Source: Methylomonas sp. EFPC3
Lineage (GTDB): Bacteria; Pseudomonadota; Gammaproteobacteria; Methylococcales; Methylomonadaceae
Assembly (NCBI RefSeq): GCF_029643245.1
Contig: NZ_CP116398.1
Coordinates: 3,592,372 to 3,656,371, forward strand
Direction of reading: 5' to 3'
DNA length: 64,000 nucleotides
Shown here: in pieces, positions 17,492-19,797 of the stretch
Layout of the letters: the number at the start of each line of letters is the position of its first letter
Numbering within the stretch: the stretch's first letter is position 1
Translations under genes and position numbers: made by a program
Notes under the pieces: generated by a model
The model's input: the letters and a program-made list of their open reading frames with translations, nothing else
The model's database searches: none
Told to the model about the DNA's origin: nothing

Positions 17492-17671
17492 TTATTGTTC
17501 GAACAGGGCCAGTTTTTGTCCCATGTACATGCTCATTCCGACCAATGCGCCGACCATGGCGATGGAAAACACGAAAGGCGGCCGATGGAACAGCAAGATC
17601 GCGAAATCGGCAACAAACAGGCTGGTGAACAATGGGCGGTCGACAAAGCCCAGCAACATCTTTTTAAACAT
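17492..17671 (-). CDS. Small two-helix membrane protein
   Basis: A 59-aa protein with two hydrophobic segments (about residues 14-30 and 34-50), preceded by MFKKMLLGFVDRP. No family is recognised. It is immediately upstream of the RDD gene on the same strand, with no bases between stop and next start codon, so the pair is probably an operon. A GTG three codons upstream (17680) is an alternative start; GGAG lies three bases before the ATG. Confidence 0.6.
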   Translation of the reverse strand: MFKKMLLGFVDRPLFTSLFVADFAILLFHRPPFVFSIAMVGALVGMSMYMGQKLALFEQ

Positions 17672-17811
17672 ACGCTCCACACTCCGAAGTAAAGTGCCCG
17701 CGGCCTGACGAATGGGTGCGGGCTTGACTGGTATTCAAGGTATTACGCCGGTACGCGGCGCATGGTCGAATTCTACATTCAACACAAGGGAATGTAAAAG
17801 AAAGTGCTCGA

Positions 17812-17841
17812 TTGAGCTTAATTCTGGCGAGGTGTTATGAT
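17812..17841 (+). promoter_or_regulatory. Candidate sigma-70 promoter for pcnB-folK-panBC
   Basis: TTGAGC (17812-17817) and TATGAT (17836-17841) are separated by 18 bases and lie about 70 bases before the proposed pcnB start. No better match is seen in the gap. The downstream genes overlap or nearly abut through panC, so one transcript is likely. Confidence 0.5.
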
Positions 17842-17911
17842 AAAGCCTGATAGCTGCGCGTGCTGCAGCCACACGGTTTGGCAGGTTTCAATCAATTAAA
17901 GGAATACAATT

Positions 17912-19297
17912 ATTTTTAGCTTCATCAAAAAGATCTTTGCACCCGTGAGTTTGGCCGCACCATCGGTCAGTGAGCCGGTCGTTGCCGATAGAGCGAAGAT
18001 TTATCCGCGTTCCGAGCACTGCATCTCCCGCACCCAAATCAGCGAGAACGCACTCAAGGTATTGACGCGCTTGAAAAAAGCCGATTTCGAAGCCTATCTG
18101 GTCGGCGGTTGCGTGCGGGACTTGCTGCTGGGACGGGAGCCCAAGGATTTCGATGTGGCGACCAACGCCAGCCCGGAGCAGGTGAAACAAATATTCCGCA
18201 ATTGCCGCATTATTGGCCGCCGCTTCCGCTTGGCCCATGTCTTCTTCGGCCGGGAAATCATCGAAGTCGCCACCTTTCGCGGCGGCTCCGATAACGAGGA
18301 ATCCGACCGCCAAGTGGTGCACGAAGACGGCCGCTTGCTGCGCGACAACGTGTTCGGAACGTTGGAAGAAGACGTCTGGCGTCGCGATTTCACGGTCAAC
18401 GCCCTGTATTACAACATCCGGGATTTTTCGGTGGTCGATTACACCGGCGGTATGCAGGACCACGCGGCCGGGGTGTTGCGCCTGATCGGCGATCCGGAAG
18501 TCCGTTACCGGGAAGATCCGGTGCGGATGATCAGAGCCATTCGCTTTGCCGTCAAATTGGGCTTTACGCTGCATCCCGACACCGAGAAACCGATTCACGC
18601 CCAGGCCGACTTGCTGAAAAGCATTCCCTCCGCCCGGCTTTACGATGAGGTATTAAAGCTGTTTTTGGCCGGTTACGGTTTGCAAACCTTCGAAATGCTC
18701 CGGCATTACGGCTTGTTCGGAATTTTGTTCCCGGAGACCGAGCGCTGTCTGACTACCCAGGAACAGGACTTTCCGCGTCTGTTTTTGATTCGAGCGCTGG
18801 AAAACTCCGACCGGCGCTATAACGACGGCAAGACGCTGACGCCTTATTTTCTGCTGGCCGCACTGCTGTGGGAGCCGCTGCAAGTCGCCGCGCAAAAGCG
18901 CATCGGCAACGGCGAAAACGAGACGCTGGCTTACCAAAACGCCGCCAACGAAGTTTTGGCGCGCCAAATCAAAATCACCGCAATGCCCAGACACATCACG
19001 CAGTCGATGCGCGACGTCTGGTTCATGCAGCCCAAGTTTGCCCGCACCGTCGGCACCCGGCCGTATCGCTTGCTGGAGCAGCCTAAATTCAGGGCGGCTT
19101 ACGATTTCTTTCAGTTGCGGGCGGAAACCGGCGGCGCCGATCCGCAACTGGTGGAATGGTGGGCGCAGTTCCAGGAGGCCGACGAGGAATTGCGCAAACA
19201 AATGACTGCGCCCGGCAAATCCGGCGGCGGTAAACCGCGCAACCGCAAATCCGGCCGCTACCGCTCTCGAACCAAGCCGGTCGCCAATCCGCAATGA
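17912..19297 (+). CDS. pcnB: Poly(A) polymerase I, probably initiated at AUU
   Basis: PcnB adds 3' poly(A) tails that promote RNA decay. The 461-aa product has the nucleotidyltransferase head motif LVGGCVRDLLLG and the catalytic DFDVATNA, then RRFRLAHV, the FTVNALYYN region, RYREDPVRMIRAIRFA and a basic C-terminal tail (KPRNRKSGRYRSRTK). No ATG precedes the conserved core. An ATT at 17912, eight bases after AAAGGA, opens the frame as (M)FSFIKKIFAPV, resembling the E. coli N-terminus (M)FTRVANF, which is known to start at AUU. The conventional alternative is GTG at 17945. Its stop overlaps folK as ATGA. Confidence 0.9.
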   Translation: MFSFIKKIFAPVSLAAPSVSEPVVADRAKIYPRSEHCISRTQISENALKVLTRLKKADFEAYLVGGCVRDLLLGREPKDFDVATNASPEQVKQIFRNCRIIGRRFRLAHVFFGREIIEVATFRGGSDNEESDRQVVHEDGRLLRDNVFGTLEEDVWRRDFTVNALYYNIRDFSVVDYTGGMQDHAAGVLRLIGDPEVRYREDPVRMIRAIRFAVKLGFTLHPDTEKPIHAQADLLKSIPSARLYDEVLKLFLAGYGLQTFEMLRHYGLFGILFPETERCLTTQEQDFPRLFLIRALENSDRRYNDGKTLTPYFLLAALLWEPLQVAAQKRIGNGENETLAYQNAANEVLARQIKITAMPRHITQSMRDVWFMQPKFARTVGTRPYRLLEQPKFRAAYDFFQLRAETGGADPQLVEWWAQFQEADEELRKQMTAPGKSGGGKPRNRKSGRYRSRTKPVANPQ

Positions 19298-19797
19298 CGG
19301 CGCTGAATCCCGGCGTCGAAGCCTATATCGGCCTGGGAAGCAATCTGGACAATCCGGTCGAACAACTCAAGCAAGCGCGGACCGAGATCGCGACGCTAGC
19401 CGGCGTCGCCGAATTGGCCTTCTCGTCGCTGTACCTTAGCACGCCGGTTGGCCCGCAGGATCAGCCCGACTTTGTCAACGCGGTGATGAAAATATCCACG
19501 AGTCTGGCGGCAGCCGAGTTGCTGAGCCAATTACAGGCTATCGAAACCGCCCATGGCCGTTTGCGCTTGGTTCGCTGGGGGGCAAGGACGCTGGACCTGG
19601 ATATTCTGCTTTACGGGGCAAGCATAATCACCGAAGCACAGTTGGTCGTACCGCACCCGGAAATGGCGAAACGGGGATTTGTGCTGTATCCGTTGGCCGA
19701 CATCGCGCCGGCCGATTTGCCTATCCCAGGGTTCGGGCCGCTGGCGGACTTGCTGGCTGCTTGCCCTCAGGCTGGTTTACAGAGGCTGGAGCCGTGA
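19294..19797 (+). CDS. folK: 2-amino-4-hydroxy-6-hydroxymethyldihydropteridine pyrophosphokinase
   Basis: FolK transfers pyrophosphate from ATP to 6-hydroxymethyl-dihydropterin, the step before dihydropteroate synthase in folate synthesis. The 167-aa protein has AYIGLGSNLDNP, the pterin-pocket region VGPQDQPDFVNAV and the Mg-binding signature RWGARTLDLDILLYG. It overlaps pcnB by four bases (ATGA) and its own stop overlaps the GTG start of panB. This is the common gammaproteobacterial pcnB-folK-panB order. Confidence 0.95.
   Translation: MTALNPGVEAYIGLGSNLDNPVEQLKQARTEIATLAGVAELAFSSLYLSTPVGPQDQPDFVNAVMKISTSLAAAELLSQLQAIETAHGRLRLVRWGARTLDLDILLYGASIITEAQLVVPHPEMAKRGFVLYPLADIAPADLPIPGFGPLADLLAACPQAGLQRLEP

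Follow-up and report, generated by a model that had tools for sequence, protein, structure and literature searches.

The window analysed here, a stretch of 64,000 nucleotides from Methylomonas sp. EFPC3, carries a pcnB gene whose start in the list of open reading frames is a GTG at 17945, and the original prediction proposed that translation begins further upstream, at an AUU codon at 17912. The locus raises the question of which codon starts the protein, and of whether a weak start is a feature of pcnB beyond this one genome.

The start region of pcnB

The gene is predicted to encode PcnB, poly(A) polymerase I, on the basis of its match to TIGR01942 (513.1 bits, with the cut-off at 305.65, scored from 17909) and to PDB poly(A) polymerase chains, and its revised coding sequence spans 17912–19297 on the plus strand (461 aa). 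The PcnB protein of the nearest named relative, M. koyamae strain SM2 (L003), is a 99.8% match, and the 4.44 Mb window genome (G000) groups with Methylomonas. A second PF01743 gene elsewhere in this genome is presumably the CCA-adding enzyme. A folK-like gene (19294–19797, plus strand), which served as a control gene, overlaps the pcnB stop codon in an ATGA, and the order pcnB-folK is the same as in E. coli MG1655. As side observations on the locus, each of the five loci inspected for it (L046, L152, L191, L242, and L252) had a tRNA-Glu (CTC) gene immediately upstream of pcnB, in L046 on the strand opposite to pcnB, and one genome (G098) had a full-length pcnB match plus a second copy as two adjoining pieces, as if split (G098:C1:4626648-4627924).

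Read in the pcnB frame from 17897, the window runs TAA AGG AAT ACA ATT ATT TTT AGC TTC ATC AAA AAG ATC TTT GCA CCC GTG. The in-frame TAA (17897–17899, plus strand) closes the frame upstream and overlaps the Shine-Dalgarno (SD) sequence AAAGGA (17898–17903, plus strand), which is supported by direct reading, by SD scores, and by the alignment of relatives. Exactly eight bases (17904–17911) separate AAAGGA from the ATT at 17912–17914 (plus strand), so that the open frame and the spacing are as originally described; a second ATT directly upstream (17909–17911, plus strand) had not been mentioned. Between the TAA and the GTG (17945–17947, plus strand) the frame holds zero ATG, GTG, or TTG codons, which makes this GTG the first standard start. 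The gene thus has an in-frame AUU at SD distance and no standard start between the stop and the N-terminal segment, as is typical of the AUU type. Scoring the SD support of four candidates placed ATT 17912 on top (7.7), ahead of ATT 17909 (6.65) and GTG 17945 (3.7), with a score that is crude in that it gives 8.8 to E. coli pcnB, whose ribosome-binding site is called poor in one passage of the literature.

Further upstream, a consensus scan found a promoter-like TTGAGC-18-TATGAT with a TG before the second hexamer (17812–17841, plus strand), one of two such sites in 17600–18000, one per strand, against a shuffle mean of 0.5, an excess that is not by itself evidence of function. A related locus (L089) shows a similar TTGAGC...GTGTTATGAT stretch. 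From this promoter the RNA would start near 17848 and carry a 5' UTR of ~60 bases. The leader folds less stably than its shuffles (z +1.54; 189 of 200 shuffles were at least as stable), and no occlusion of the start is therefore predicted. The same region holds a 20-codon upstream frame (17837–17899), whose ATG lies within TATGAT and which ends at the TAA overlapping the SD sequence; by eye, L007 has a similar upstream ATG in another frame relative to pcnB.

This upstream ATG allows for the reading that the N-terminal codons are translated by ribosomes entering upstream, by frameshift or from a leader peptide, and not at the ATT, given that ATG 17837 is in the pcnB frame and that the frames of several relatives are open further upstream. 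The probability of this appears negligible, because TAA 17897 closes the frame in the window, ATG 17837 is part of the promoter-like TATGAT and is placed in a different frame in L007, and six loci of family f90 (described below) have stops three codons before their ATT.

Conservation of the AUU among close relatives

The alignment of pcnB upstream regions was based on 95 loci resembling the window's family (f1-like), which were reduced to 70 non-redundant ones, 34 with the window's family code and 36 named-contig loci assigned by likeness; in L026 and L285 the start was positioned manually. In the column of ATT 17912, 67/70 loci carried ATT, two ATC, and one GTT. Internal Ile codons of the same genes, sampled in the first part of the gene to ~100 codons past the domain anchor, were ATT in only 265 of 577 cases (238 ATC, 74 ATA), which corresponds to a Fisher odds ratio of 39 and a p-value of ~1e-18 that overstates the evidence because the sequences are related and not independent. 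A chance origin of the ATT arrangement would be possible in one sequence, and is untenable given its conservation in 67 of the 70 relatives.

When 30 Methylomonas-like sequences were compared, the differences per site (codon positions 1/2/3) were 0/0/0 for the start codon, 0.064/0.093/0.271 for codons 2–9, 0.156/0.41/0.227 for the 12-base stretch of SD and spacer, and 0.686/0.596/0.603 for the preceding 24 bases. Substitutions are of the coding type from the codon after the ATT onward, and have no such character before the SD sequence; codon-level conservation from the AUU onward is a further property that the gene has in common with the AUU type. Codons 2–9 lie within the N-terminal stretch for MFSFIKKIFAP (17912–17944, plus strand), which a GTG start would lose.

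If translation began at GTG 17945 and 17912–17944 were untranslated leader, the gene would use the first standard start codon in frame, and this is what speaks for the GTG. Its low SD score of 3.7, its occurrence in only 3/30 Methylomonas-like sequences, and the third-position-biased substitution in codons 2–9, which lie upstream of it, render such a start highly improbable, and the GTG is judged to be an internal Val codon.

The upstream ATT 17909 is an AUU at an acceptable SD distance (score 6.65), and might be the start or be used together with ATT 17912. I regard this as very unlikely, and the upstream ATT was judged not to be the start, in view of its poorly conserved column: ATT was found there in 3/70 loci (window included) and ATC in 3/70, the rest being mostly GTC, GCC, GTT, and ACG, against ATT in 67/70 at the next codon. 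In one relative (L278), the two codons ahead of the conserved ATT are the stop TAG and then GTC.

The SD region itself showed some variation, and bases 12–10 before the aligned start in the 70 relatives were AGG in 38, GGT in 9, GGG in 8, GGA in 8, AAG in 5, AGT in 1, and GGC in 1. Two loci run counter to a strict rule. At the aligned position, L262, a member of the window's family, carries GTT, which is not known as a start codon and runs counter to a conserved weak start. In L261, an ATG lies three codons further upstream, counter to the rule that the start is never a standard codon. Taken together, the start of the window gene is almost certainly AUU 17912, with little room for doubt on sequence grounds, and the main claim of the original prediction is strongly borne out at the codon level, with ATT in nearly all relatives and with codons 2–9 evolving as coding sequence.

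Probable weak starts in Methylococcales and other Gammaproteobacteria

For a wider comparison, Methylococcales loci were taken from the profile listing (30 and 40 further ones among the matches listed) and redundancy removal brought the set from 135 to 111 loci. L002 and L058–L064 were omitted before counting, no domain anchor was present in L033, L039, L125, L186, L217, L236, L290, L291, and L292, and no helix motif in L260 and L272, of which L272 is within the set of 111 and outside the tree used below. The set of other Gammaproteobacteria comprised 139 loci (15 plus 124 of 128 taken from the best-scoring matches listed), of which 136 were assessable for forced starts, three being without an upstream stop. 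The stretch from the upstream stop to the conserved domain was free of ATG, GTG, and TTG in 48 of the 247 loci that could be assessed, and the folK control gave 0/119. These forced non-standard starts comprised 29/111 Methylococcales loci, a count that further weighs against the GTG reading, and 19/136 loci among the best-scoring matches listed from other Gammaproteobacteria.

In the 29 forced Methylococcales loci, the aligned codon was ATT in 27 and ATC in two. Sixteen of the 19 forced loci from other Gammaproteobacteria had an in-frame ATT with an SD score of at least 5.5, and the remaining three offered ATC, CTG, and ATA; ATA outscored ATT in L190 and scored equal to it in L220. As SD-like runs occur by chance, contrasts between in-frame and out-of-frame codons were used along with the forced cases. 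Among the best-scoring other-gamma matches listed, ATT with a good SD was found in 45/128 cases in frame versus 22/144 out of frame (p 1e-4), and ATG showed no excess (11/84 in frame versus 18/89 out of frame). The corresponding values for ATT in Methylococcales were 76/238 and 23/135.

A start candidate with an SD score of at least 5.5 was found in 79/139 of these best-scoring other-gamma loci, and 60/139 gave no call. The best codons of the 79 calls were ATT (33), ATC (14), ATG (9), TTG (8), GTG (6), ATA (5), and CTG (4), so that a standard codon (ATG, TTG, or GTG) was called in 23/79, counter to a universal weak start. In the two wrong frames of this set, ATT was the best codon in 10/56 and 5/27 cases, and an unbiased scan for the codon with the best SD returned ATT in 15/139, ATC in 8, ATG in 3, GTG in 2, TTG in 1, and many arbitrary codons. 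Within family f90, which was picked because two of its members (L220 and L244) already had ATT, the codon was ATT in 17/19 loci and ATC in 2/19. In 6/19, an in-frame stop precedes the ATT by three codons, and the AUU of f90 stands before an N-terminus different from that of the window gene. L197, from another family, has the 12 bases ATTTTTAGCTTC in common with the window, and pcnB of E. coli MG1655 is annotated from ATT.

Within Methylococcales, position and identity of the start appear to have changed. In family f6, the second codon before the aligned Ile is TTG in 8/8 non-redundant loci that contain the motif, the Ile position is variable (ATT, ATC, ATA, TTT), and the start seems to have moved to this UUG, which is itself a standard start and counts against the rule that a standard codon is never used. 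In family f4 (among L099–L122 and L253–L289), 22/26 loci have a CTG at the corresponding place and the next-but-one codon varies; the Leu codon at this place is CTG every time, versus 145 CTG among 346 internal Leu codons. A move of the start to this CUG is tentative because SD support is lacking, with only 2/76 in-frame CTG codons of the Methylococcales set reaching an SD score of at least 5.5. In four f4 loci (L099, L101, L109, and L110), a GTG with a strong SD (score 9.6) precedes the domain anchor by ten codons, and this standard start may be used there.

In a weak tree (110 rows and 99 columns; 59/99 inner branches open; states of f4, f5, and f6 assigned by the analyst from the aligned CTG or TTG), the start assigned was ATT in 73 rows, CTG in 23, TTG in 8, ATC in 5, and GTT in 1, with at least 11 changes, and ATG at the aligned start was found in 0 of the 110 rows. 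The start position gave no call in families f3 and f7. Separately, L290, L291, and L292 (f7) have neither a helix motif nor an H-x-I-S-R-like anchor, and the profile aligns to them only from its position 7 or 8; the N-terminus of f7 PcnB is predicted to differ from the others. Where the start can be placed, the aligned codons point to a non-AUG start that persists across several Methylococcales families.

The AUU may well be the start and owe its conservation to something other than low efficiency, such as overlap with an RNA element, or inertia. SD and spacer are less variable than the DNA before them, which would fit this, and the low efficiency of the AUU is itself a prediction. I consider this explanation rather unlikely, if worth keeping in mind: the single-strand leader does not fold better than its shuffles (z +1.54), the start seems changed in position or identity elsewhere (CTG, TTG, ATC) with ATG in 0/110 rows, and an AUU recurs in f90 in front of a different N-terminus.

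On a wider reading, the conserved pcnB feature in Gammaproteobacteria would be a weak start as such, and not a particular codon or position: AUU in almost every locus sampled from the window's family and also in several distant families, apparently shifted to CUG or UUG elsewhere in Methylococcales, and only seldom replaced by AUG. Poly(A) polymerase level would then be tied to IF3 activity in a class-wide circuit parallel to infC. The chances that this reading holds are about even.

Proposed mechanism, meaning, and comparison with known systems

The sequence of events envisaged for the window would begin at a sigma-70-type promoter at ~17812–17841, yielding an mRNA with a short leader. The 30S subunit would bind AAAGGA at 17898–17903, the initiator tRNA would pair imperfectly with AUU 17912, the third base being mismatched, and IF3 would reject most of these complexes, as extrapolated from infC and pcnB of E. 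coli, such that little PcnB is made; the protein would begin M-FSFIKKIFAPV. I consider this explanation as a whole, with pcnB (17912–19297) translated from AUU 17912, a putative promoter, IF3 rejection, and low yield, to be very probable. Low yield, IF3 dependence, and selection for scarcity of poly(A) polymerase are inferred, and IF3-dependent discrimination at pcnB is plausible in the light of published work on infC and pcnB. The original suggestion that low initiation efficiency is a selected feature fits the persistent non-AUG start and the near-invariant third base of the ATT; selection itself I infer.

The N-terminal segment had been described as very similar to the E. coli MFTRVANF, which holds for the M and F in common; beyond these, only a basic, weakly amphipathic character is retained, mostly borderline against shuffles. 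MFSFIKKIFAP has a net charge of +2 and a hydrophobic moment of 0.49 (fraction of shuffles as high 0.079), compared with 0.63 for E. coli residues 1–14 (0.023) and 0.47 for L201 (0.38, plainly not significant). The PDB poly(A) polymerase chains 3aqk, 3aql, and 3aqm match from residue 29 or 30 of the window protein, their residue 3, and hence do not show this segment. The E. coli enzyme is described with a cleaved 17-residue N-terminal leader, and a membrane location is cited (PMC9764084); a role of the segment in membrane binding is a guess.

The AUU start of E. coli pcnB is already known, and the window gene adds another case within a wider pattern not found described. In the literature searched, in part as excerpts, no description of a conserved pcnB AUU beyond E. 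coli was found, and Binns and Masters (2002) may discuss it; 'AUU' is absent from the main text of a paper on pcnB evolution (PMC8208693). A start-codon study reports a single switch to AUU among 61,358 reconstructed ancestral AUG starts (PMC5622118). A review associates deregulated PAP I with slow growth or lethality via depletion of functional tRNA (PMC3997798), and such harm would explain the constraint on the pcnB start. Many related bacteria seem to keep a weak start, which suggests that low enzyme supply is an old, selected trait, and an AUU kept over deep gammaproteobacterial divergence would turn an E. coli curiosity into evidence that poly(A) polymerase scarcity is selected. A possible link of IF3 level to RNA polyadenylation becomes testable in several lineages. 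In practical terms, gene finders limited to ATG, GTG, and TTG would place the start too far downstream and drop the conserved N-terminal segment.

Among known systems, E. coli pcnB is an orthologue that has in common with the window gene the AUU start, an upstream SD sequence, a short basic N-terminus beginning M-F, and folK as the following gene. Its AUU start and low PAP I level are attributed to Binns and Masters (2002) in a citing text. The two differ in the segment itself (FSFIKKIF in the window, FTRVANFCRK in E. coli), and the start in the window is predicted from sequence alone.

The second parallel is the autocontrol of IF3, which discriminates against the AUU start of its own gene, infC (PMC9410913). 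The pcnB start is of the kind that IF3 discriminates against, and infC in Methylococcales also seems to be without an AUG: it was found in 30/31 genomes (L294–L323), with ATC at the aligned start in 30/30, preceded by GGAGG in loci of the window's genus (the infC of the window genome is L305, near G000:C1:711138). In Methylococcales, pcnB and infC, the two genes with an AUU start in E. coli, thus seem to have kept a non-AUG start, with a different codon in infC. Unlike pcnB, which keeps ATT, infC keeps ATC, each gene retaining its own weak codon, and this difference would fit gene-specific tuning of initiation strength. A third comparison is offered by Staphylococcus, where cvfC1 (AUU) and ccpN (AUA) are different genes from pcnB and are likewise described as having conserved non-canonical starts that lower reporter yield (PMC13009471).
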